DNA of 64,000 nt from Anaspis maculata (lineage: Eukaryota > Arthropoda > Insecta > Coleoptera > Scraptiidae), in assembly GCA_949128115.1 (NCBI GenBank), contig OX421963.1, forward strand, positions 53,563,306 to 53,627,305. Direction: 5' to 3'. How positions within the stretch are numbered: position 1 is the stretch's first letter; each line of letters begins with the position of its first letter. Below the pieces are notes generated by a model that saw nothing but the letters and a program-made list of their open reading frames with translations, did not search any database and was not told where the DNA came from. A program made the position numbers and the translations under genes. Of this stretch, positions 5,213 through 64,000 are shown in pieces.

Positions 5213-6057
5213 CTAAATTTCGGGATTGAATCCCGAAAATCCCGGGATCCTGGGATCGTGATTCTTTGATCCTGAAATCTCGGGATCAGGATTTTTTTCC
5301 GGGATTGCACCCCCTGATGCCAATGTTTTGTTCAGTCTTTCCGTCAATCCGTTCGTCGCAGAATGATATGATGACGTGAATTGCGAGCACCCACCCATTG
5401 CCTTCACCAACTCTGTCACCAATTCCGATTGGAAGACTTTTCCTCTGTCTAACAGTAGGTATTTTGGGCAACCGTGTCTCGCTAGAATGTCCTCCAGTAT
5501 GAACCGTGCTACTGGGGCAGCTTTGCTACTATCGAGAGCTCGTGTCTGTGCGTAGCGCGTCGCGTAGTCTGTCGCTACCACGATGTATTTTGCCCCTTGT
5601 TTTGTCTTCGGAAAAGGAGCAAGAAGGTCGATCCCTACTTCATAAAATGGGGTAGCAACTTCTAAGTGTTCTAGTAGTCCCTGTGGTCGCTGGTTACTGC
5701 CGCGTCTGGCTTGGCGTCTTGGCATCCCTTTACGAATTTTGTCACGTCCTTTTGCAAGGTGGCCCAATAGAATCGATCTTTTATTCTACTGAGTGTTTTC
5801 GCGATGCCTAAGTAACCAGCCAAGGGCTCGCTGTGGTGTGCTAGTGAAATTTCGCCAACAAGTTTTATGGGAATCACCAGCAGATCTTCGCGCCCAGCTG
5901 TGGTTGCGTTCATAAACATTAACACCCAATTAAAAAAAAAACTCCAATAGTCAAGGTCTCTTGTTGCTCTGATTGATTCGGTGGTATGGGGTGGCGCATC
6001 TTTTTCTTTCTCTGGTGTTATGTTGGATCCGTGATAGCCCCGGATAGTCCCAGTCAC
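5213..6057 (-). pseudogene. Ty3/gypsy integrase fragment
   Basis: Two overlapping minus-strand frames (6057-5671, then 5767-5213) together cover a retrotransposon integrase. The first holds the zinc-binding region (HHSEPLAGYLGIAKTLSRI, then RFYWATLQKDV), with the usual second His replaced by Tyr. The second holds the catalytic core: D in GIDLLAPFPKT, D in LLLDRGKVFQS, E in GLTERLNKTL, consistent with a DDE triad. The frame change near 5700-5767 and loss of the C-terminal domain after TLASGG mean it is dead. The sequence after 5330 turns into GGGATCC/ATCCCG repeats. No flanking LTR was found. Confidence 0.85.
5214..5312. repeat. Short GGGAT/ATCCC repeat cluster
   Basis: Multiple copies of a GGGATTGAATCCCGAAA-like unit, both orientations, truncate the integrase reading frame at its C-terminal end. 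The origin is not recognised. Confidence 0.6.
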
Positions 6058-7987
6058 GGGGGACAGCTACGAGCAGGCTGAGGGCCGGAGTTGAAGAGAT
6101 TGCTGACTAAGTATTCCGTGTTTCTTGAGAATACTCCTCCAGCTGACCCTGCTTGCAACTCCTATCAACGCTCCGATTTGCTTTCTTCTGAGAAAATGAA
6201 GACCCTTGTTCCTTGTTACATCCGTGGAATTTCCGGACAAAGGACAGAACAAACTGAAGAAGCGACTGGATCTTGGCGAAGTAAAATGTGATCAACAATG
6301 TAGAATACTTTCCAAATATCAGAGCATGCTATTTGGTTTACAGAAAGACCGTCCCCCAACAAAACGTTCCAGGAAGTTGTGGTGACTGAAGCCCCATTGA
6401 ACTTCTATTCGTGAAAGATTCCTGGGGGCTCTTGGTGGCTGAAGACTAGCGCTCCTGAGATAACTATTAAGACTCTCTCAAAAACAAATGTTACCAGAAG
6501 ACTCCTGAGAACCAAACAGGGTTCCAGACTATACAAAACAGTAGGTACTGATGCCCTGACTTAAAGAAATGACCCCCAAAGATTTCAGGGGGTCAAATAG
6601 AGCTGAACATCTAAGGTATAAGATGGCACTAGTGAGTACCCTTTCCAAGCAGAAAAACCCATACACTTTGGAGAATCTTCCGAAGGCCATAATATGGTCT
6701 CCTTATCACGTAATACATGGGTTCCTTATCACAGTCTTCCATGAGCCAAACAGGGCTCCACAGCATGAAAGGCGGCAAGGATGGTCGTCCCCGTCCCCGT
6801 CCGTCCCGGTGACCGCTGACCATAGTTAAATACCGCAAAAACCAATTGCCTGTTGTTTAAAAAAAAGAAATGGTCTGAACCGGTTCACAGAATGAAAAGT
6901 GGGTGCAGGCGTCCATTTCCCTCTTTTGCTTGTTATTCCGTTTTACAAGAAAACTTCTGTTCCATTCCTGTTCTTTTATTACTATTGTTATAAACAAAAG
7001 AGACTCAAAGATTCCTGCAGGCCAAAGAGGACTCGTTATCACATAAGGCGACTCTGGTACCCTCACATAACAAAAATGACACCTAACGACTTCCGAGAGC
7101 TTGATATGGCGCTACAGTTTACACCTTAGGTACAAGACGACACTGGTCACTGAACTAAACGAAAAAAAGACATTCAAAAACTTGCGAGGGTCATATGGGT
7201 ATTTGATCACAAAAGACAACTCTGCTCTGGCGCACTCGTTTAAGAAAAAGACATTGATCAAAGACTTCCGGAGCCCAAGCAAGGCTCCTCACCTTACAAG
7301 ACGATATTGATGCTCGCATTAGACGACCTCGGCTAGCGAAAGATCACGCGACTGCAAATCATGAACATTCCAACGAACAAGGAGGGTTTTAACAAGACTC
7401 ACATCAGAGACTGAACTTGAAAGGATTCAAAAATAATAAAATTTGCAAGCAAAAATGCACGGAAAATAGGAACAGATCCTGCCTGAAAACCGGCTTGAAA
7501 ATTTAAAAAACTAGAAAGAGAGAGCTCGGGTTTCCATAACACCAGCCTGCCTGGCTTCCTGCCTGGAAATCCAGCACCAAAAATTGCATGCAAAAATGCA
7601 CCGTGTGAAGCGGTCCAAATCCCCTGCTTGTTTTCCAGGCAGGAAATTCAGTTTAGGTTAGGTGTCAAAGTCAATGAGTCTTGAATAATCATCCTGAACT
7701 GCACAATTCTACACATGTACCACTATTTGAATGATACCTTGCACTTGACTTCATAGCACGCACCAAACTGATCTAATAAACAAGTTGAGCTGTTTCCAAA
7801 CTATAAGATGACATCTAATATCAGTCTGACAGCATTCGTCAAAAATCCAGCACAGCTTCCTGCCTCGTGTGATGCCAAAACCTGCACGAAAACATGCAAC
7901 AAAACCTGCCTGGAAATCCTGCCTAGAAAACCTGCCTGGAAAACCTGCCTGCAAACATGCACCGTGTGCCGCGGGCATTAATGAGCT

Positions 7988-8133
7988 TGTGGCGGCTCTC
8001 ATGTGGGCGTGTGACGGAGGGACTGTTGTCTCCCTTGATAGCTTAGTGGTTAGAGTATCCATCCGGCAAATGGAAGACGCAGGTTCGAATCTTGCTCAGG
8101 GCAGACACTTTTTCTCCGTCACATCGCGCCATA
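7988..8133 (+). repeat. 5' LTR of the TRIM element
   Basis: Begins TGTGGCGGCTCTCATGTGGG. It differs from the 3' LTR by about five transitions in 146 bp, so the insertion is not recent. It ends at the ATA before the primer-binding-like site. Confidence 0.78.
8033..8102 (+). ncRNA. tRNA-like Pol III unit in the 5' LTR
   Basis: Folds as a near-complete cloverleaf: acceptor CCTTGA/TCAGGG, D stem GCTT/GAGT, anticodon stem TCCAT/ATGGA around the loop CCGGCAA, and T arm GCAGG-TTCGAAT-CTTGC. Box A is TAGCTTAGTGG and box B is GGTTCGAATCT. A TTTTT terminator follows at 8109-8113. The anticodon would be GGC, but U33 is replaced by C, so a working tRNA is unlikely; a transcribed tRNA-derived RNA is possible. 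Confidence 0.72.
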
Positions 8134-8135
8134 AA

Positions 8136-8149
8136 TGGTGACCCCGAAC
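8136..8149 (+). other. Primer binding site of the TRIM element
   Basis: TGGTGACCCCGAAC begins two bases after the 5' LTR. This matches the TGGTGACCCC-type primer sites seen in many insect LTR elements. The priming tRNA is not determined here. Confidence 0.7.
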
Positions 8150-8332
8150 AACAATAACACGCACGCAACACGCTACTTAAATAAACAAGTAACAGCGAAC
8201 AATTGAATAGCACCGCCACTTCTCTTCCTACGTCCACCCACGTGTCCTATCCGTCGCCCTAGCTGGGGGGTACCGAACAACGGTTTATAAGAACGGTGAA
8301 CACGGATGACATACGAGACGAACGACGTCTCT

Positions 8333-8345
8333 GGAGGGGGAGTAC
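8333..8345 (+). other. Polypurine tract of the TRIM element
   Basis: GGAGGGGGAGTAC abuts the TG start of the 3' LTR, as expected for plus-strand priming. Confidence 0.7.
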
Positions 8346-8491
8346 TGTGGCGGCTCTCATGTGGGCGTGTGACGGAGGGACTGTTGTCTCTCTTGATAGC
8401 TTAGTAGTTAGAGTATCCATCCGGTAAATGGAAGACGCAGGTTCGAATCCTGCTCAGGGCAGACACTTTTTCTCCGTCACATCGCGCTATA
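8346..8491 (+). repeat. 3' LTR of the TRIM element
   Basis: Direct copy of 7988-8133 exactly 358 bp downstream. It keeps box A (one change), a perfect consensus box B GGTTCGAATCC and the T-run. Confidence 0.78.
8391..8460 (+). ncRNA. tRNA-like Pol III unit in the 3' LTR
   Basis: Second copy. The T stem is fully paired (GCAGG/CCTGC) and box B is perfect. The anticodon position reads GGT instead of GGC. TTTTT follows at 8467-8471. Confidence 0.72.
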
Positions 8492-8815
8492 AGCTAATGC
8501 GCAGACGGCAAGATTTTTTTGTATCGATATCGTCGATCAACGAGTAGGTACTAACTTAGCAAGATGACTTGATCAAAATTTTTGTTCGAAAGATACGAGA
8601 GATGAAGTAAACAAGTGAGTATGCCTTCACGTGCGTGAGTCTCAGTAGCGCATTTTCTCAAAGAGGCATATTGTGAACGTAAAGAAATTTGGTTGAAGGA
8701 GAAACACCATTCCTTGCCCACTTTCTTCATTCGAAACTCATTGTGATATTGTGTTATCGGAATGGGGTACTTGCCAATGAAATAGATTTGAATGAAAATT
8801 CTTTCACTCATCAAT

Positions 8816-11045: not shown

Positions 11046-11470
11046 AGTGATTGGAAATTGTGGAAAAGTGGAAATTCGAGAAGGGCACCTCAAGATCTAT
11101 AATACTGCCAAGTTTCAAAAATATCAGACAACCTTCAAAAAAGGCCGGAATTTAGCATATCTTATAAAGACAATTTTGACAGTTTCCCGAGATGACGTTT
11201 GTAAATTCAGGTATGAAATAAGAAGAGAATTTTTTTGTCTACAAAATGACGTTCCAGATGTTGAAATCCGTTGAAAAACAAACGAGCTACAGCCAGTTTA
11301 ATATTACCAGATTAAGCCCATTTTGGCGCCTCCACCATATTTGCCTGCAGCAGATGTCAATATTCCACCATAATTTTTCATGGTCCTTGATCGCCCAGGA
11401 GTCGATTAGGACATATCTCTATATATCTTCACGAAGTTGCACACAGCCAAGCCTTTTTTGACCCTATGCC
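11046..11470 (+). repeat. Dispersed repeat R1, uninterrupted copy
   Basis: About 420 bp containing CACCTCAAGATCTATAATAC, TGACGTTCCAGATG and GCAGATGTCAATATTCCACC. It recurs at 56398-56985 (minus) and 60700-64000 (plus, split by insertions). It is non-coding, and useful as the empty-site reference for two palindromes at the right edge. Confidence 0.8.
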
Positions 11471-12871: not shown

Positions 12872-14035
12872 TCAAGACATTGAAATGGCAGTTCTTCGGA
12901 CAGCAGCACTCAACAGAGCATTTGTATCAGGCTGCTCAGTCATTACATCAACTTTGACCCACTGCCTGGTCTTAGAAGACTGCTTTACAGCACTGAGTAC
13001 GGCCTGCACATACAAACCATCATCGAAATTGGCAGCTGAACAGACCGGTTCCTTAACCCATCCTGCTTTTTCCTTTACAGGCAAAAATGCTTCCCTCAAA
13101 GCAGAAACCATCTTACAAATGCCTTTGATGAATGGCTTTGGCAGACTCAAATTCGGAACGGCACATTGCAAATCCTCCACGTCCAAGTACAGCACTTCTT
13201 CATTGCCTTTGTTTCTCCTGCCAAACAAGTCTCCACCTCTAACCACCAAGTGCCCAGTTGTACTGCAAATCATCACCTCCTGTTGAAACGTGCTTTGTGT
13301 GTGGCTATTCAAAGTGGCTGTCACCAAAGTACCATTCGAAAGTTCCATTTGAAAACAGCAAAAATCTGGTGCAGAAATATTTCTTATCCCGTTTATGCTC
13401 CCGTTAGTTTTGGAGAAAGTCCGGATCAAGCCGTGAACTCTCACCGCCTTTTGCTTGGTTAAAAACGTCACCAGATCTACCACATGACTTCCAATCAAAT
13501 TCAAAGTTCCACCCCCCATGGTATCATCACATTTCCAATTGAAAGTCTCTGATTCAGTGAACAGTGAACCAGACTGGATCCGAATGTCGATCAGCGTGAT
13601 CGGCATTTCCAGATAGTTCTCATTGATGGCTTTCCGCATCTGGGTGAAGGCCGGCAAAAACCTGAATGGGTGGTTTATCAGGGAAATCAACGAGGGGTAG
13701 TATTGTCCAGCTCGGACCATTTTCAAAGCATCGCACTGATTAAGTCCGGCCGGTTTGTCGCAGACTATGTGCTTGCCTATGCCCAGGGCTTTGACGGAAA
13801 TCTGGGCGTGTAAATTAGGCGAGCAGAGGACGAAGATCAAGTCGACGTCTTTGCGAAGAAGGACGTCGTCGATTTTGTTGGTGAAAAAGGGAATGTGGAG
13901 TTCTTTGGCAGCTTCTTGGGCGTCCTGGAGGGTCTGGCTCCAGATCGCTTCTATTTTGAAGTTGTTGTCACGCAGGATCGGGACCAATGCTTTGACGACG
14001 GGGCCAGTGCCGAAGACTCCTATGCCTGGCAACAT
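12872..14035 (-). CDS. GFOD2: Glucose-fructose oxidoreductase domain protein (GFOD1/2 family)
   Basis: 387 residues, close to the 385-390 of animal GFOD1/2, in one uninterrupted coding exon. N-terminal Rossmann fold with the dinucleotide-binding loop GVFGTG (6-11), then VDLIFVLCSPNLHAQ and the DKP motif (93-95) that corresponds to EKP of the Gfo/Idh/MocA family. The C-terminal half has GGGTLNLIGSHVVDL (174-188), with the family histidine at 184. Substrate is unknown for the animal proteins, so an enzymatic role is only inferred. The ATG directly follows a good acceptor (TTGTAATTTCAG), which implies a 5' UTR intron. The MLPGIGVFGTG start matches the family, so the start is secure. Choice between GFOD1 and GFOD2 is nominal. 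No signal peptide is obvious. Confidence 0.93.
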   Translation of the reverse strand: MLPGIGVFGTGPVVKALVPILRDNNFKIEAIWSQTLQDAQEAAKELHIPFFTNKIDDVLLRKDVDLIFVLCSPNLHAQISVKALGIGKHIVCDKPAGLNQCDALKMVRAGQYYPSLISLINHPFRFLPAFTQMRKAINENYLEMPITLIDIRIQSGSLFTESETFNWKCDDTMGGGTLNLIGSHVVDLVTFLTKQKAVRVHGLIRTFSKTNGSINGIRNISAPDFCCFQMELSNGTLVTATLNSHTQSTFQQEVMICSTTGHLVVRGGDLFGRRNKGNEEVLYLDVEDLQCAVPNLSLPKPFIKGICKMVSALREAFLPVKEKAGWVKEPVCSAANFDDGLYVQAVLSAVKQSSKTRQWVKVDVMTEQPDTNALLSAAVRRTAISMS

Positions 14036-14477
14036 CTGAAATTACAAGTGTAATTTCAAATTATCCTGATTTTTCAATAAACAAGCCCTTTACGTTTTCT
14101 CTTTAGTTCCTAATTCCACTTGCACGGTAAATGGGGTAACAAGTTTGTGCTTTCTCTCAAAAATAAAAAAAAAACATCAACACTCGACTCGAGTCACTGT
14201 CACGACTGTCACGACCAGGGCCTGTGCACTCTATAGCAGCGTGAAGGGACACGGTTATGCAGTGACGCTAGATGGCGCAAATTCAAATTATGCCGGTAAA
14301 ACACTCGCCCTGCATTACCGCTGTCCTGTCGTGTTTTCGACATTTCTCGTGGTCACTTTGGCAGCGGCCATTTTCGTTCTTGTTGTGAATGCTGCGAAGA
14401 GTCGATACGTATTTATCCTAATCCAGTGTGTTTAACAAGTGTTTTCGAAATTTTTTTTGCTTTCATCTTGATTCAAG

Positions 14478-22458: not shown

Positions 22459-23150
22459 TTAGTCGGAGCCGCTCTGCAAGACGCACTCCATTAGACATTC
22501 AAACGTGACCGGTGCGTTACAAAGTCCAAACGGCATCACAGTAATTTGATAAAGGCCGTTCCCGGCAGAAAACGCCGTTTTTTCTTTGTCGTCGTTATTG
22601 TGAAGTCCCACTTGCCAGTAACCACTCTTCAGGTCAAGCGTCGAAAACCATCTCGATCCAGACAGCGTGCTCAAAGTGTCGTCAATCGGAGGCAGTGGAT
22701 ATCAGCTGTCTTTCTTTGTCACTTCATTGAGTTTGCGGTAGTCCACGCAAAATCGCGTACTCCCGTCTTTCTTCGTAACCAAAACAACCAGTGATGACCA
22801 TGGGCTTGTCGATTCTTCCATCACGCCTTCATCCATAACATGTTTTTTAAAAGCTTCGACACTTCTTGCTTCGCCAATGGCAAGCGTCTGGGAGCCTGTC
22901 GAATTAATGCGGCGTTCTCGGTGTTGATCCGATGTTGGATTACGCTGGTCCTTCCGGTAGGATTACACCTTCCACCGCAAAGGCTGCGGCTTCTTCTTGG
23001 ATGAATTGCGTCGCAAGTTCCTTCTCGTTGCCACGCAGATGTTCCCAGTCAGGCGAGAACATCTCCACTATCCTTTTCTCCAAGAACTTTGGAGTCGAAG
23101 CCTTTGTCGATACATCTTCACAGCGTGAGATCCATTCTACGGGTTCACTT
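22459..23150 (-). pseudogene. Ty3/gypsy reverse transcriptase fragment (minus)
   Basis: Reading on the minus strand from about 23150: a linker with FLEKRIVEMFSPDWEHLRG, then HRINTENAALIRQAPRRLPL at the start of RT, SPWSSLVVLVTKKDGS, FCVDYRKLNEVTKKD, FSTLDLKSGYWQVGL and TVMPFGLCNAPVTF. The catalytic YxDD motif lies beyond the break at 22458. Two frame changes (about 22830 and 22940) and an internal TGA after KKDS (about 22701) show decay. The fragment is likely the continuation of the gag-protease region at 28225-29440, split by the opposite-strand element between them. Confidence 0.85.
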
Positions 23151-23176
23151 CCTTCCTACGGTCTCTCCTTCCTTGA

Positions 23177-23521
23177 TTGTTTTGCATGTCTCGTGTTACT
23201 GGCAGTAAAACCAGTTCCAGATCAAAAGCTAGAGAGCGAATTTCGATTTTTACGGGAGTTCCAGCGGGAACCAGTACATCGACGAAGATTGCTACGGTTG
23301 GTACCTCTGCCACTCAGTCTGTGGAGACTCCTCGTGAATCCAGACGAGTTTGCTGGAATTGCAGAGCCACAGGACATTTTGCTGGAAGTTGTCAGTCTCC
23401 GGAAACTCTCTATTGTCATCTATGTGGACATCAAGGTACTTCATACGCCCGATGCCCCAAGTGTAAGCCGTCTTCTCAACGCCACAAGAATGTTCCGTCG
23501 GTATCTAGGTCGGAAAACTAA
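23177..23521 (+). pseudogene. Gag C-terminus with zinc knuckles
   Basis: 115 codons ending in TAA. It has a CCHC knuckle CWNCRATGHFAGSC and a second cysteine-rich motif YCHLCGHQGTSYARCPKC, the nucleic-acid-binding end of a retrotransposon Gag. The capsid part is missing upstream. The protease frame starts 24 bp later in another frame. Confidence 0.8.
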
Positions 23522-23544
23522 ATAGCGAGCTCACAACAGACCGA

Positions 23545-24426
23545 ATGTCGAGTTCGTCGAAAAACAAATCGGTCAAGTCTTTACGTTTTCAACTTGCCAC
23601 TTTGCATCAGGATTCCAGACCTTACCTTGGAGTTTCCATATTTGACGTCCGCCTGACTGGGTTAGTAGATACAGGAGCTTCCAGAACCTGCGTTGGTCCT
23701 GATGGTATACGAGTTTTGGATGAAATAGGATGTGTTCGAGTCTCGTCGTCTGTCTTAGAGTGTAGAGTTGCGAATGGAGTCAGGATTGGAACTGTCGTCG
23801 GTGCCTATAAAGTTCCAATCCGAATCGGGAATTTGGAAAAATATTTTGAAGTTTTGGTGATACCGGAATTGTCCCATTCTTTGATCCTAGGAGCCGACTT
23901 TCTACGACGCATGCGGATGGTGCTGGATCTATCCAAGGATTGTTTGGAAGTACCTGAAGCAAGACCTGAAATTTCCTCCGTCACTGCCGAATCAAATTTG
24001 ACGGAAGATCAGCGCAAACGCTTGGATGCTCTATTGAATGAAGTGTTCTCAGAGTCACAGGAGGCATTGGGATGTACCACCCTTGTTGAACATAAAATCC
24101 GAGTGAAAAATGACGTCGAACCAATAAAACAACGGTATTACCCAATGTCCCCGGCGCTACAGCAACATGTGCACCGTGAATTGGATAAAATGTTGGAAAT
24201 GGATGTGATTGAGCCGTCGTCATCAGCTTGGTCCTCCCCGATAGTTTTAGTGAAGAAGCCGGATGGATCGTACAGATTCTGTGTTGACTATAGGAAGGTC
24301 AATGCTGTGACTCAGCGCGACGCGTATCCTCTACCTTACATTTCTGGGATTTTGGACCGACTGGGGAACGCACGTTTTCTCTCGTCCCTCGACATCAAGA
24401 CAGCCTACTGGCAGGGTTCCAGTTGA
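23545..24426 (+). pseudogene. Gypsy protease and N-terminal reverse transcriptase
   Basis: 293 codons. The aspartic protease active site is LVDTGASRTCV (about residues 36-46), with the second conserved motif SLILGADFLRRM near 112-123. The RT N-terminus follows: VEHKIRV, MLEMDVIEPSSSAWSSP, VLVKKPDGSYRFCVDYRKVN and FLSSLDIKTAYWQ. The frame is lost by one extra base at about 24415 and stops at TGA; RT continues in the next frame. Confidence 0.85.
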
Positions 24427-25261
24427 AGAAGCGTCTCGAGCCGTCACTGCATTCACAGTTCAGGGTCGGGGTCTGTTCCAATTCAAGCGGATGCCTTTCG
24501 GGCTCCACAATGCGCCAGCGACGTGGCAACGCCTCATAGACCGAGTGATTGGAGCAGATCTCGAACCATATGTTTTCGTATACCTCGATGATATTATCCT
24601 GGCCACGGATACGTTTGAAAGGCATTTGGAGATTCTTCGAGAGGTTTTCAGCCGATTGACGAAAGCTAGTTTGATGGTCGGTCGAGGGAAATGCCACCTG
24701 TGTCGCCCCGAACTTCGCTATTTGGGATACATTGTTGATGGTCGTGAACTGCACGTGGATCCCGGAAAGGTTGAAGCAATTATCGAAGTCCCCACACCGA
24801 AAACCACCAAAGAAGTTCGGCGAGTACTTGGAATGGCCAGCTGGTATTGGCGGTTCATCCCGAATTTCTCTACGGTCGTCGCTCCAATCACCAAGCTCTT
24901 GAAGAAAGATGTGAAGTTCGAGTGGACGTTGAGTTGCGAGCAGGCTTTGAGAACCCTGAAGGAATGCCTGATCACCACACCTGTGATAACTTGTCCAGAC
25001 TTTTCCCGGCCGTTCCAGGTGCAGACTGACGCCAGTGATTACGGGCTCGGCGCTGTTCTGACTCAGCAAGCGGAAGACGGAGAGCATGTCATATGCTATA
25101 TCAGCAGATCTCTTGAGCGCAAGCGAGAGGAAGTACAGCGCTACAGAAAAAGAGTGCTTGGCCTTGGTGTGGTCGATAAAAAAGTTGCGCCCATATATCG
25201 AAGCTACGCATTTCACTGTCATAACCGATCACTTTGCTCTACAGCTGTAGATAAACTTTAA
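24418..25261 (+). pseudogene. Gypsy reverse transcriptase core and RNase H
   Basis: Resumes directly after the frame change. It contains RMPFGLHNAPATWQ, the catalytic YLDDII motif, the thumb/connection PEVRRVLGMASWYWRF-like stretch and RNase H start [16 protein letters not shown] second frame change at about 25168 moves the rest of RNase H ([11 protein letters not shown]) into another frame, which also carries a TAG at about 25250. Confidence 0.85.
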
Positions 25262-25262
25262 A

Positions 25263-25721
25263 GAGTGGCTGAATAATCTGCGGGACCCAAACGGTCGACT
25301 TGCAAGATGGAGCGTCAGGTTACAACAATATGACTTCGATGTGATACACCGAAAGGGAAAAGACAACGTAGTCCCTGACGCTCTCAGCCGTAGTGTTCCG
25401 AAGATTTCTGCGATTGACTTTTCCAATATGGACGTGGACGATGACTGGTACTTGGCGATGGTGGGTAGGGTCACTGATGATCCAATCAATTTTCTTTTAT
25501 GGCGAGTCGAAGATGGTATTCTTTACAAGAATTGTAAGAATCTTGACTCGATGACAGGATACATGCGGAGCTGGAGAATAGTGGTCCCTCGAAATCACCG
25601 ACTTGATATCTTGAAATCGTCCCACGAATTGCCAACGTCAGGTCACGGAGGAGTATCACGTACTTACCACCGAGTTGCACTGAAGTACTACTGGCCGTCG
25701 ATGGCAGCGGAATATAACTGA
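25263..25721 (+). pseudogene. Gypsy RNase H end and integrase zinc domain
   Basis: Starts FKEWLNNLRDPNGRLARW with VIHRKGKDNVVPDALSR, the usual RNase H end. The integrase HHCC domain follows, with HELPTSGHGGVSRTYHRV. It ends at TGA in AAEYN because of one extra base near 25718. Confidence 0.8.
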
Positions 25722-25725
25722 CTTT

Positions 25726-26322
25726 GTGAAGAGATGTCAGATCTGTCACGAGCAGAAGCCTGAGCAGAAGCCGCCGGCTGGACTTATGTGCGGTCGCGTG
25801 GATGTGACCATGCCTTGGCAAGTAATTTCTGTAGATCTGGTTGGACCTCTTCCAAAATCCAAGTCAGGAAACATCCACATCCTGTCGGTATCTGATTACT
25901 TCAGTAAATTTTCTTTATTCTTTCCGCTTCGGACCGCCAATGCCAAGACCATCGTAAAGATCCTCGAAGATGATGTCTTTCTTTTGTTTGGTGTCCCGCA
26001 AAGACTCGTATGCGACAATGGCAGGCAGTTCGTAAGTGGGGAATTTGGGACGTTGCTGAAGAAGTATGGAGTGGAGATCCGGAAGACTGCGAATTACCAT
26101 CCTCAGGCCAACGCCGTTGAGAGACAACACCGAACTCTCAAGCAGATGCTGTCCAGCTTTGTGAAGGACAACCACCGTGAATGGGAGTCTTATCTGCAAA
26201 AAGTAGCCTGCGCCATATGCGTACATCGCGAGGAGAAAGCACTGGTCAGACGCCATACTTCATTAATTTTGGACGACAAATGTGTGTTAAAGGAAGAGAT
26301 CATGAGATGGCGGCCAAGCTGA
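25726..26322 (+). pseudogene. Gypsy integrase core
   Basis: The CQIC half of the zinc domain, then the DDE core: D in VISVDLVGPLPKSKSG, D in RLVCDNGRQF and E in NAVERQHRTLKQML. A frame change near 26235 diverts the C-terminus, so this frame ends in 30 unrelated residues. Confidence 0.85.
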
Positions 26323-26663
26323 GTGATCCGGATTGTGAAGTGCCGGTTCCGAACGAAGAACTGTTCGCGCAAATCTATAAAAAGGTTAGAACCAGATTGG
26401 CCAAGGCACACGAGAAAAGCAAACGGGTCTACGATCTACGACGGCGTGACGTGTCTTACGAGATTGGTGATAAGGTTTGGCGGAGGCATTTTGCGAACTC
26501 TGATGCAGGACGCTACTTCACAGCAAAGCTCGCACCAAAGTTCGTGGGACCACGAATCGTGGCTGAAAAGGTTTCGCCATGGACGTACCGACTAACTTTG
26601 TTGGATGGCTCACCAGACGGTGTGTGGCATGCTAAGGACCTAAAACTTGATACTACGTCGTAA
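26236..26663 (+). pseudogene. Gypsy integrase C-terminal domain
   Basis: Continues integrase after the frame change: TGQTPYFINFGRQM, then the basic YEIGDKVWRRHF and KFVGPRIVAEKVSPWTYRL chromatin-binding-type domain. Ends with TAA. Confidence 0.8.
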
Positions 26664-26867
26664 ATCACTGGAATGCAAAATTCTTAGACTGGCCCTCAGC
26701 TACAAATCCTTTTCTTTTTTTTCAAGTAATTGCACAAGTTTTGTTTGTTTTCTTTTTTAAATGTACGTACATATTCACTGATTGAGTAGCTTCACAGGTC
26801 CGAACAAATTTTTCTTTCTCTTTATTTTTTTTTGTGTCGAAATTTCTTCCTGGAAATTTCTCTAGAG

Positions 26868-26881
26868 GTAGGGGGGAGATT
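26868..26881 (+). other. Polypurine tract of the gypsy element
   Basis: GGTAGGGGGGAGAT lies just before TGTTACAC, the presumed LTR start, about 200 bp past integrase. Confidence 0.65.
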
Positions 26882-46389: not shown

Positions 46390-47800
46390 TCAGAATCGCT
46401 TCCATCATGGCGATGGAAAATTTATTGTTAGCGCACTTTCCCAAAAAATGGGAAAAAGGCGCTTTTAGCTTCACTTTGTCCGTCCGTCCGTCTGTCCGTC
46501 CGTCCGTACCCGGGATAACTCCTCGGGTAAGAAAGATATCGATGTGGTGTAAACGCTGATCAATAGTACACATGTCCAGGATGTCAAGTTGACTTTTAGT
46601 TTTTTGTTATTCTGCCGCCATCTTTGATCCGCCATTTTGAATTTCTCTAAAAGTGATCCGATTAAAATGAAATTTGCAGGCAATGTAAACCACATCAAGA
46701 TCTATCCAATTTTCGACAATTGATGTCCCGCCGCCATCTTGTATTCTCCATATTGAACATGTTTCGAAGTGATAGAACTACGAGAATTATGCCTCAACGA
46801 AAAGAGATATCGATGTGGTGCAAACGCCAATCGAATGCGTACGTGACCACCATATAAAGTTGACCAATGATTTTTGTCACTTGGCCGCCATCTTTGATCC
46901 GCCATTTTAAATTTCTCTGAAAGTGGTCTGATTCGAGTGAACTTCGCAGGTGATGTGAACTTCAATTAGATACATCCAATTTTCGACAATTGATGCCCCG
47001 CCGCCATCTTGTATTCTCCATATTGAATATGTTTCAAAGTGATAGAACTAGGAGAATTATGCCTCAATGAAAAGAGATTTCAATGTGGTGCAAACGCCAA
47101 TGAAATTCGTACGTGTCCACCATATAAAGTTGACCAATGATTTTTGTCATTTGGCTGCCATCTTGATCCGCCATTTTAAATTTCTCTGAAAGTTGTCTGA
47201 TTCGAGTGAAATTCGCAGGCGATGTGAATTTCAATTAGATACATCCAATTTTTGACAATTGATGCCCCGCCGCCATCTTGTATTCTCCATATTGAACATG
47301 TTTCAAAGTGATAGAACTAGGAGAATTATGTCTCAACGAGAAGAGATATCAATTATAAAGTTGACCAATGATTTTTGTCACTTGGCCGCCATCTTTGATC
47401 CGCCATTTTGAATTTCTATGAAAGTGGTCCTATTTGAGTGAAATTCACAGGCGATGTGAACTTCATCAAAATACATCCGATTTTGGACAAATGATGCTCT
47501 GCCGCCATCTTGGCCGCCATATTGAAATTTCTTATCAATTAACGATTTTCATGGAGCTTGGGAGTCACCTTTGTTTCGTATGATCATTCTTATTCTCCAG
47601 CCAAATTCCAACATTCTGCCGCCATCCTGGCCACCATATTGAAATCTCTTATTAGTGGAACGATTTTCATGAAACTTGGAATTCGCCCTTGTCTATAGTA
47701 CGATAATTTTGATTTTTAAGCCAAATTTCATGAATCTGACGTTATTTTGGCCGCCATATTGAAATTTCTGCCCAAATAACATTAAAACCCCAATTAACAT
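46390..47800 (+). repeat. Tandem repeat in DBR1 intron 4, period about 270 bp
   Basis: Phrases CGCCGCCATCTTGTATTCTC (46730, 46999, 47269), TTGACCAATGATTTTTGTCA and GATCCGCCATTTT recur in the same order, with further diverged units on either side. Units contain no ORF. Confidence 0.85.
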
Positions 47801-60640: not shown

Positions 60641-61027
60641 CCCTTTTATAGTAGCTGTAGTAAAGAGAGACAACGGAAAATTGGAGACCTCAATGGATGA
60701 CCAAAGTTGATACTTCAGGGAGTTCTACAAGCCATAACCCAAGAACCAGAAGTAGCACGTACACGAGTAAGGTGTCAAATTGTAGAGAATTGAATGAGCT
60801 TCCATTCGCATACAAACGCTTCCACCTCACATTAACTGAAATGAAGAGAGTGACAAAAAACTGTTTTTTGGGCGCCATCTTTCCAATATGGCGGCCAAAA
60901 CGGCAAAAATACGAAGTGAAAAAGTGGAAATTCGGAAAGGGCACCTCAAGATCTATAATACTGCCAAGTTTCAAAAATATCAGACAACCTTCAAAAAAGG
61001 CCGGAGTTTAGCATATCTTATAAAATA

Positions 61028-61084
61028 AAATATAAAATATATATATATATATATATATATTTTATATATATAAATATAAAATAC
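61028..61084 (+). repeat. (AT)n-rich microsatellite
   Basis: Uninterrupted TA units inside repeat R1 with flanking AAATATAAAAT. Confidence 0.9.
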
Positions 61085-61340
61085 AATTTTGACAGTTTCC
61101 CGAAATGACGTTTGTGAATTCAGGTATTAGTGCGGGAGCCCACTGCAAAATTCTGGGTCGATCGCTTTTATGAAGAATTTCTGTTTCAATCGATAGTGGG
61201 CAATACGATGAATATTCCGATACCCGACAGCCACCTTCCATTCCCTGCTATAAGGGTCGCCACCGGATTTGAAGATGCCCATTTTGAAACATTTTTTACA
61301 CCTCTTGTTTATATAAAAAAATGTCACAATGATTGACAGA

Positions 61341-61423
61341 AGGCGAGATGGTCGAGTGGTCTAGATAAAAGTAAACGAATTCAAAGGTCAGAGGTTCTAA
61401 TCTCCGCGAATACCTTTTTTTTT
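61341..61423 (+). ncRNA. tRNA-like Pol III sequence, left arm
   Basis: Box A TGGTCGAGTGG (61349-61359), box B GGTTCTAATCT (61393-61403), and a run of nine T from 61415. The GGTCGAGTGGTCTA wording is tRNA-Ser/Leu-like, but the T stem does not pair fully, so a SINE-type relic is more likely than a tRNA gene. Confidence 0.6.
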
Positions 61424-61998
61424 ATTCTTTTTTTTCGCATTTAAAAAGCTTGACTTACTTGAACTTTTTGAAATTGCGGAATTGAACGACGTTTCTCAAT
61501 TTGGAGTAACTTTCGTCGCTAAATTTATTAATGCTGCCGTTTTTTTCCACACAAAAAATACGGCATTTCCTAGTATAGTGCTCTTTCTTCAAACGTGAGT
61601 GCCATGAAAACCAGTGAAGTGTGGAGAATTGAAAAAAATAAGGGTTTCCTAAAATCAGGTGTGGAAATGTATAAGTATGTATTTCAAACTTTCAAAATCC
61701 GAAAAACTCGATTTTTTTTCAAAATTTTTATATATTTTTTGAAAAAAGACCCTCATTCTCTTGCCAGCTCAGATTTAAATAACTAATTTTTCTGTTACGT
61801 TTTTAGCTGCACAGATTTGGCAGTAACTCACGCCAAAAAAATCTATCTGTTGTTTCTCTTCCGCTCTGCAGCTGATCCGCAGTCTGTTTCAGCCGTTTTT
61901 TATGCTAGGAAATAACATCCTCAACTACTGAAAATGGTATCTTTGTATTAAACAGTGATATGTGTCTGTCAAGCTTTTAATAGGCGAAAAAAAAGAAT

Positions 61999-62082
61999 AA
62001 AAAAAAAGGTATTCGCGGAGATTAGAACCTCTGACCTTTGAATTCGTTTACTTTTATCTAGACCACTCGACCATCTCGCCTT
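61999..62082 (-). ncRNA. tRNA-like Pol III sequence, right arm
   Basis: Inverted copy of the left-arm unit, with the same A and B boxes and a T-run on the minus strand, facing the left copy. Confidence 0.6.
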
Positions 62083-62300
62083 CTGTCAATCATTGTGACA
62101 TTTTTTTATATAAGCAAGAGGTGTAAAAAATGATTCAAAATGGGTATCTTTAAAACCGGTGGCGACCCTTATAGCAGGGGATGGAAGGTGGCTGTCGGGT
62201 ATCGGAAGATTCATTGTATTGCCCACTATCGATTGAAACAGAAATTCTTCATAAAAGCGATCGACCCAGAATTTTGCAGTGGGCTCCCGGACTATATGAA

Positions 62301-62441
62301 AATAGTATATTATAATACGAGTTTAATAAGACGAAGTTTGTCACACGACTGTTTTTGGGGCCCGACGAACGCAGTGAGGAGGGTCCCAAAGGAAGGAGTG
62401 TGACGAAACGTCTTATTAAACGAGTGCAATATACTATTTTA
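62301..62441. mobile_element. MITE, about 140 bp
   Basis: AATAGTATATTATAATACGA and TTTAATAAGACG pair with CGTCTTATTAAACGAGTGCA and the end ATATACTATT. Arms about 45 bp around a GGGGCCCGACGAACGCAG core. Confidence 0.75.
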
Positions 62442-62702
62442 TCTATTTTGCCCAAAATATTTGAGAAAAATTTAAAAATTCTAGAGCTAGCAATGTCTTT
62501 CAGTGTCATAAAAGTCAAGCGCCAGTAAGACACGCGTTTGCGTGTCGAAAAGTGGCCAGTACGATACGGGAATAGATAAAAGAAGATAATTTTTTTGTCT
62601 ACAAAATGACGTTCCAGATGTTGAAATCCGTTGAAAAACAAACGAGCTACAGCCAGTTTATTATTACCAGCTAGATAAGCCCATTTTGGCGCCTCCACCA
62701 TA

Positions 62703-63873
62703 CAGGGTGATTCATGAGTGACCTTACATAGGCTAATGAGAGATAGAGGACTTCGAGGCGAGTCAGGATCCACTGGAGAAATTTTATTTTCTCCAATGGT
62801 TACGAAGATACAGGGTGTTTTGTGTGTTTCGTATGAAACTTTGATAAAGCGATATTTCTGAAACGGCCAAAGGTATTTTGTTGAAATTCACCAGTAATAT
62901 CTCTCTATTGGAACTCATCCTGAAGCCATGCCGGGTGAGTCAAAATTCAGGGCCGGGCTAGAAAAAAGGTGCCCCTTTTTTGTTTCATCTAAAAGTACAT
63001 TTTCTGACCGCTTTTCTAAAAAACTGCTATCGGATTCAAAAAGCTGAGGAAAATGCTTCAAGAATCACTCTTCAATTTAGATGGCACACCTAAACCGTTT
63101 CGAGAATAAAATAAAAAGTAAAATTTGTGGGTGAGTTCCCATTTTCGACAGGACATGATCGACTCATTGTTTGATTGAATTCATCAAAATTCATTTTTTG
63201 GCATGTCTCTGTTGAATAGAAGAGCTTGGTTGAAAGACAAATTCCAGAGCCGAACAATTTTTTTATGACAAAATCGAGAGTAAAACCAAAATTAGACTCG
63301 ATTTGGTCGTCAAAAAAAAAAAATTCCGGCTATGGAATTTTTCTTCCTACCAAGCCCTCCCATTCCACAGAGACAAGCTGAAAAATGAATTTGAATGAAT
63401 TCAAACAATGAGTCGATTATGTCCGGTCGAAAATGGGAACCCACCCACAAATTTTACTTTCAATTTTATTGCCGAAACGGTTCAGGTGTGCCATCTAAAT
63501 TGAAAAGTGATTCTTAAAGCATTTTTCCTTGGCTTTTTGAATCCGATGGCAGTTTTTTGGAGAAGCGGTCAGAAATTGTACTTTTTGATGAAACAAGAAA
63601 GGGCCACCTTTTTTCTAGCCCGGCCCTGGATTTTGACTTACCCGGTATGGCTTCGGGATGACTTCCAACGGAGAGATTTTACTGGTGAATTTCAAGGAAA
63701 TATCTCTAGCCGTTTCAGAAATATCGCTTATCAAAGTTTCATACGAAACACACAAAACACCCCTGTATCTTCGTAACCAATGGAGAAAACAAAGTTTCTT
63801 CAGTGGATCCTGACTCGCCTCGAAGTCCTCTATCTCCCATTAGCCTATGTAAGGTCACTCATGAATCACCCTG
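62703..63873. mobile_element. Foldback element, 1171 bp, TA duplication
   Basis: CAGGGTGATTCATGAGTGAC pairs with GTCACTCATGAATCACCCTG, and the arms stay complementary to a loop near 63290. TA flanks both ends. The empty target CCACCATATTTGCC exists at about 11332-11345. Non-coding. Confidence 0.92.
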
Positions 63874-64000
63874 TATTTGCCTGCAGCAGATGTCAATATT
63901 CCACCATAATTTTTCATGGTCCATGATCGCCCAGGAGTCGTTTAGGACATATCTCTATAATTATATCTTCACGAACTTGCACACGGCCAAGCCTTTTTTG

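Follow-up and report, generated by a model that had tools for sequence, protein, structure and literature searches.

TRIMs with tRNA-derived sequence in their LTRs have been described under the name Helenus ('TRIMp3') (Kojima, 2024; PMC10886601). In animals, Helenus is accompanied by 4-bp duplications and has Gypsy partners, and Trp is among the hymenopteran primers. These animal partners are linked through PBS similarity only, the helpers are predicted to keep ordinary LTRs, and Helenus is regarded by Kojima as being of several origins (PMC10886601). All arthropod hosts in Table 1 of that paper belong to the Hymenoptera, and the term 'coleoptera' has no occurrence in its main text. For Cassandra, a plant element with 5S sequence, Kalendar and colleagues described an LTR super-hairpin that arises from self-complementarity (PMC7215508, section 2.4). 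In that article, template switching is proposed for Cassandra arrays and the autonomous partner is called unknown.

The element described here occupies 504 bp of a 64-kb window, the whole stretch of Anaspis maculata DNA that was analysed. By its build it is firmly a Helenus-type TRIM, set beside Helenus by published description. Like Helenus, it has tRNA-derived sequence in both LTRs, a PBS and a PPT without coding sequence, and its length falls within the 311-1263 bp of that group (PMC10886601). It also resembles the animal families in its 4-bp duplications, Gypsy-type partner and dispersed multicopy nature, and it shares its PBS with an autonomous Gypsy of its own genome. Tandem arrays, noted for Helenus in one fish family, occur as well, and in neither case is a tRNA function expected. 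Unlike Helenus as published, the element has a beetle host and is seen in hybrids with two Gypsy lineages. Since the arthropod hosts in Table 1 are all hymenopteran, the beetle represents a new host order for Helenus. The LTR of the beetle element also has complementary arms; 'inverted', 'hairpin' and 'palindrom' have no occurrences in the main text of Kojima (2024). In the open-access literature searched, no later or beetle report of tRNA-bearing TRIMs was found beyond a meeting report citing Kojima (2024).

With Cassandra, as described in the parts of the reports cited here, the element shares a Pol III-type promoter in the LTR, tandem LTR-internal arrays and small size (PMC7215508; PMC10853983), as well as LTR self-complementarity, which forms the super-hairpin there (PMC7215508). 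Unlike the plant element with its 5S sequence, the beetle element has a tRNA, and candidate partners can be named. Rfam found tRNA only, and no 5S rRNA-derived sequence, in the beetle LTRs. The initial annotation had drawn a parallel to Cassandra, with a tRNA in an insect. PbTRIM of the harvester ant is likewise a non-plant, insect TRIM; compared by description, it differs in its ant host, and a tRNA is not reported in the part of the article cited here (PMC3532108).

Structure of the element

The features of the locus are collected in Table 1. Anatomy, Rfam scores and genome copies agree with the original proposal of a miniature LTR retrotransposon bearing a tRNA-like sequence in each LTR; its direct LTRs, PBS, PPT and AGCT flanks, all without coding sequence, were found again. 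The order LTR-internal-LTR is complete. The two LTRs differ by five mismatches over 146 bp, every one a transition. The longest stop-to-stop frame fully within the element is 75 aa, and no plausible coding sequence is present; the one candidate protein from a junk frame gave no match at E <= 1. Neither a second copy of the element nor another exact match to the PBS TGGTGACCCCGA was found in the 64-kb window, and searches of viral_contigs with two LTR patterns gave 0 matches for either. Adjoining the element, short tandem-like repeats around CCTGCCTGGAAA occupy positions 7877-7961.

Table 1. Positions of the TRIM and its parts in the window.
Feature	Position	Strand	Basis
TSD AGCT, left copy	7984..7987	.	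sequence
5' LTR, TGTG...CATA, 146 bp	7988..8133	+	sequence and copy comparison
U3 arm, complementary to U5 arm of its own LTR; ATGTGACGGAG in most copies	8009..8019	+	
tRNA-like sequence, 5' LTR; CCGGCAA as anticodon loop; boxes A (at 8039) and B (from 8082)	8032..8103	+	
TTTTT, possible Pol III terminator, 5' LTR	8109..8113	+	
U5 arm CTCCGTCACAT	8114..8124	+	
Internal region, 212 bp, without coding sequence	8134..8345	+	
PBS TGGTGACCCCGA, tRNA-Trp type	8136..8147	+	
PPT GGAGGGGGAG, then TAC; identical tract in Gypsy-A	8333..8342	+	
3' LTR, 146 bp	8346..8491	+	
tRNA-like sequence, 3' LTR; anticodon loop CCGGTAA	8390..8461	+	
TTTTT, 3' LTR	8467..8471	+	
TSD AGCT, right copy	8492..8495	.	sequence

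The tRNA-like core

The covariance model RF00005 of Rfam scored both cores far above its cut-off of 29 bits, with 55.2 bits (E 3.7e-09) in the 5' LTR and 53.7 bits (E 9.4e-09) in the 3' LTR. These were the sole Rfam matches at gathering score in the whole window. ARAGORN, run with the bacterial code, found the same two cores only and typed them as Ala-GGC and Thr-GGT. Boxes A and B had been annotated in each LTR. The box A pattern TRGYNNANNGG is matched in full in the 5' LTR and the box B pattern GGTTCGANTCC in full in the 3' LTR, but the other box of each LTR is one base off. The annotated TTTTT terminator is present in both. Among 70 full LTRs (from 95 LTR matches), TTTTT occurs in 69, the commonest box A in 52, the commonest box B in 58, and the anticodon loop CCGGCAA followed by ATG in 63.

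A functional tRNA gene has one decodable anticodon, U33 and an intact acceptor stem, and this combination was not found in the LTR cores. tRNAs carry U directly 5' of the anticodon. The 5' LTR carries the anticodon GGC and the 3' LTR carries GGT; in both, C directly precedes the anticodon, and non-standard pairs are present in the acceptor stem. A working tRNA is unlikely, because the anticodons differ between the two LTRs and C stands where tRNAs carry U; judged from the sequence, a promoter role would suit the core better. Use of the core by Pol III, as read from the boxes, is probable; for Helenus, too, Pol III transcription is unproven in the published account (PMC10886601).

Copies in the genome

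The genome searched comprises 757.8 Mb in 50 contigs. A copy search gave 54 matches from 40 scored of 924 candidates, most of them full length at 92-97%. An LTR probe, with one mismatch allowed, matched 1,231 genome sites, and the reversed control matched 0. The 40 loci examined in detail were picked as the best-scoring matches, so this sample favours well-kept copies. Thirty of them are arranged as LTR-internal-LTR, six have three LTRs, one has five LTRs and three have a direct LTR-LTR join. Exact 4-bp duplications lie just beyond the outer LTRs in 34 of the 40. In the 30 simple copies, LTR-LTR identity is 94.5-100% (mean 98.0); the copy in the window, with LTRs 96.6% identical, is among the older ones. 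Full internal copies have an exact PBS in 46/49 cases and an exact PPT in 44/49.

The LTR-LTR joins without internal region are L005, L010 and L026. The first 8-9 bases of the second LTR are missing from L005 and L026, and in L010 an inverted LTR follows the join. Of 100 listed LTR probe sites, all on contig C1, 58 stand alone and 42 are paired or arrayed within 1 kb; the isolated ones could be solo LTRs or could have partners missing from the exact-site list.

Probable Gypsy partners and hybrid loci

The pattern TGGTGACCCCGACGTGA, like TGGTGACCCCGA in the element, is presumed to be the PBS for tRNA-Trp. It has 57 exact genome sites (control 0). The surroundings of all 57 were examined, and eight of the sites lie directly behind a tRNA-LTR. 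In L082, which is among these eight, and in L070, the PBS continues with TTTGAAC into TRIM internal sequence, and the two together match 24/24 bases of the presumed tRNA-Trp primer complement. The 57 include two larger element groups, one of 19 sites whose upstream end is ACTATATGCTATAT or a close variant of it and one of 16 sites where it is ATCGACCCCAAAAC.

Two Gypsy lineages with DUF7041 gag have this Trp-type PBS in common with the TRIM. Gypsy-A, as found in L076, encodes gag with DUF7041, reverse transcriptase, RNase H and integrase, and its protease match is under the cut-off. It has an LTR of about 250 bp that bears no relation to the tRNA-LTR. Gypsy-A and the TRIM have the same PPT with the same TGT behind it (CTGGAGGGGGAGTAC directly before TGT; L106, L107); of the two lineages, Gypsy-A is the one that shares the PPT. 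The gag of Gypsy-B is 56% identical to that of Gypsy-A over 284 aligned residues.

At three Gypsy-A loci (L075, L076 and L106) and six Gypsy-B loci, the tRNA-LTR is joined to Gypsy at the PBS. L106 runs from Gypsy-A pol through LTR_A and a TRIM internal region, enlarged by an insert of about 0.4 kb, to the tRNA-LTR. In L076 the order is LTR_A, seven bases, tRNA-LTR, PBS, and Gypsy-A gag and pol, truncated near the end of pol and fused there to another repeat. In L075 the tRNA-LTR is followed by Gypsy-A gag fused to integrase through an internal deletion. The start of the Gypsy-B internal region was matched at eight loci (15 candidates scored), six of which have it behind a tRNA-LTR (L071, L072, L073, L074, L088 and L119) and two behind an ordinary LTR (L117 and L118). 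L072 and L073 are mixed TRIM/Gypsy-B arrays with the exact 4-bp flanking repeats GTAC and AAGA, which suggests that the arrays inserted as units; matching flanks were not found at L071 and L074. On the hybrid loci, Rfam gave 16 tRNA matches at nine loci, every one in a tRNA-LTR, and none in the ordinary Gypsy LTR sequence of L107, L117 and L118.

The hybrids probably point to the Gypsy-A and Gypsy-B lineages as the mobilisers of the TRIM. The simplest account of their origin is that reverse transcription switched templates between RNAs of the TRIM and of Gypsy; recombination between DNA copies could also have produced them. L077 was considered as a further hybrid and rejected: its similarity to the LTR_A end is confined to the last bases before the PBS, and a 76% LTR_A match lies about 0.9 kb upstream. 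At this locus, different upstream sequence precedes an internal part like that of the TRIM and a 3' tRNA-LTR.

Folding of the LTR

The U3 and U5 arms of the LTR are complementary with a score of 45, compared with at most 42 in shuffles (n=2000) and at most 35 in window controls (n=1051). ATGTGACGGAG lies within the commonest 15-base arm, found in 49/70 LTRs, opposite CTCCGTCACAT. The whole LTR folds more stably than its shuffles (z -3.8 and -4.5, with 0/200 shuffles as stable for each LTR), and in the model it forms one stem with the tRNA-like cloverleaf as cap. The initial annotation had named a foldable cloverleaf; taken by itself, the 72-nt core is no stabler than shuffles (z 0.09 and -0.60), and only the whole LTR beats them. 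A modelled RNA from 8020 to 8471, whose ends were chosen by us, is stabler than 100/100 shuffles (z -2.87); 18 of its 20 U5 bases pair with U3, and the ensemble expectation is 16.3 such pairs. By this model, U3-U5 pairing could join the ends of the putative genomic RNA, and we offer this end-pairing role of the arms as a hypothesis.

Selection for arm pairing was not detected within the family, where 7 of 15 changes in the arms leave pairing intact (expected fraction 0.377, P 0.32) and two-sided changes affect 0/50 pairs in 30 LTRs. Across 22 LTRs of several types, those of the hybrids among them, pairing holds in 97.0% of 1116 cells. Two T-stem pairs vary on both sides there (17 GC vs 5 CG; 11 GC vs 9 AU), and cells with two-sided changes number 16 against 7.9 in shuffles, 0/500 of which are as high. 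Two of five measures fail in this set, two-sided pairs (3) and pair types (30) being no higher than in shuffles, and the arms show one-sided changes only. Relatedness alone can raise the remaining covariation measures.

Proposed replication and alternative explanations

We consider it very probable that the element is a TRIM with a Pol III-type tRNA core that is moved in trans by DUF7041-gag Gypsy elements. Such Gypsy elements, which have ordinary LTRs, would supply the Gag-Pol that packages and reverse-transcribes the TRIM RNA. A tRNA-Trp-type primer would act on the PBS, the second strand would be primed at the PPT, and insertion would generate the 4-bp duplication. Most likely, the tRNA-like core serves Pol III as an internal promoter. 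A genomic RNA made by Pol III would start near the tRNA of the 5' LTR, pass the first TTTTT and end at the second; the tRNA unit would then be R, and the complementary U5 and U3 would flank it just outside. Their pairing may tether one end of the RNA to the other for the first strand transfer. Pol III use, read-through, the borders of R, the role of the pairing and trans-mobilisation are all inferred.

Two other accounts of the element itself were weighed against this one. Two tRNA-derived SINE copies in tandem, with no LTR element at all, would also give cores that are tRNA-like and hold boxes A and B. The genome copies rule this out: LTR-internal order with PBS and PPT recurs in 40/40 loci, and the 4-bp duplications of the 34 loci sit outside the LTRs, leaving the tandem SINE account a negligible probability. 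Many copies with paired LTRs and short duplications are thus present, as expected for the annotated element, and others share its PBS and PPT. An autonomous Gypsy with a native tRNA-LTR, of which the TRIM would be a deletion product, was suspected from L076, which combines tRNA-LTR, PBS and gag and pol frames; L075 and the six Gypsy-B loci likewise start with a tRNA-LTR. This was dropped once ordinary LTRs were found, namely LTR_A in L107 and L104 and LTR_B in L117 and L118. Moreover, L076 itself has the LTR of Gypsy-A just 5' of its tRNA-LTR and lacks a 3' tRNA-LTR in 9.9 kb, and gag and pol stand between two tRNA-LTRs in none of the fetched loci, a subset of the copies. We therefore regard a native tRNA-LTR as quite improbable.

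A stronger rival concerns transcription only. The genomic RNA could come from Pol II, by a U3 start or by read-through from a host gene, and the tRNA unit would then have another role, such as production of a short Pol III RNA only, TFIIIC binding or action as a packaging tRNA mimic. The TTTTT behind the tRNA in 69/70 LTRs should stop Pol III ahead of the internal region, and the gag-bearing hybrids hold more TTTT runs, with two in the internal region of L071 and 13 in the Gypsy-A part of L076. Against Pol II transcription, boxes A and B are intact in most of the 70 LTRs. T runs of at least four are missing from 47/49 internal copies, which counts weakly, since such runs are rarely expected in 212 bases. 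A Pol II origin of the genomic RNA is a serious possibility, to which we give somewhat less than an even chance.

Other features of the window

An uninterrupted frame of 389 aa at 12872-14041 (-) encodes a GFOD-like protein that is 87% identical to that of Tenebrio molitor and 86% to that of Tribolium castaneum. Among the best 120 of its 489 matches, the named organisms above rank 64 are all beetles, and the first non-beetle match is 63% identical. By this single gene, but with a wide margin, the host is a beetle, and an ant host was rejected. A decayed Gypsy pol with protease, reverse transcriptase, RNase H and integrase pieces lies at 22908-26870 (+); a polypurine stretch at 26870 is followed by TTTGTTACAC, and its LTR start is unlike that of the TRIM. 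A Gypsy integrase fragment at 5213-5785 (-) matches rve slightly below the Pfam cut-off. One repeat occurs uninterrupted at 11060-11460 and split into pieces at 60916-64000, with 94-96% identity, and one of the gaps in the split copy has CAGGGTGATTCA at one border and the reverse complement of CAGGGTGATTCA at the other. The uninterrupted copy was considered as a processed gene copy and rejected, as it has no intron-like borders. A tandem repeat at 46534-47526 has copies about 77-83% alike.

Implications

The element extends tRNA-bearing TRIMs to beetles. It provides a named test system both for the question of who moves such TRIMs and for that of how a full-length RNA can arise when each LTR holds a Pol III unit and its terminator. 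The tRNA-LTR copies, several thousand or fewer, would inflate tRNA gene counts from unfiltered predictors, because ARAGORN types both LTRs as tRNA genes. It is also conceivable, but unlikely, that the tRNA-LTR works as a mobile module, a promoter that brings its own means of pairing the RNA ends and that recombines repeatedly at the PBS with Gypsy helpers. If so, the arms would join a Pol III genomic RNA end to end, a closure to which the cyclisation sequences of yeast Ty1 are comparable, and tRNA-LTR elements with helper gag or pol would be a route by which coding elements gain a Pol III LTR.
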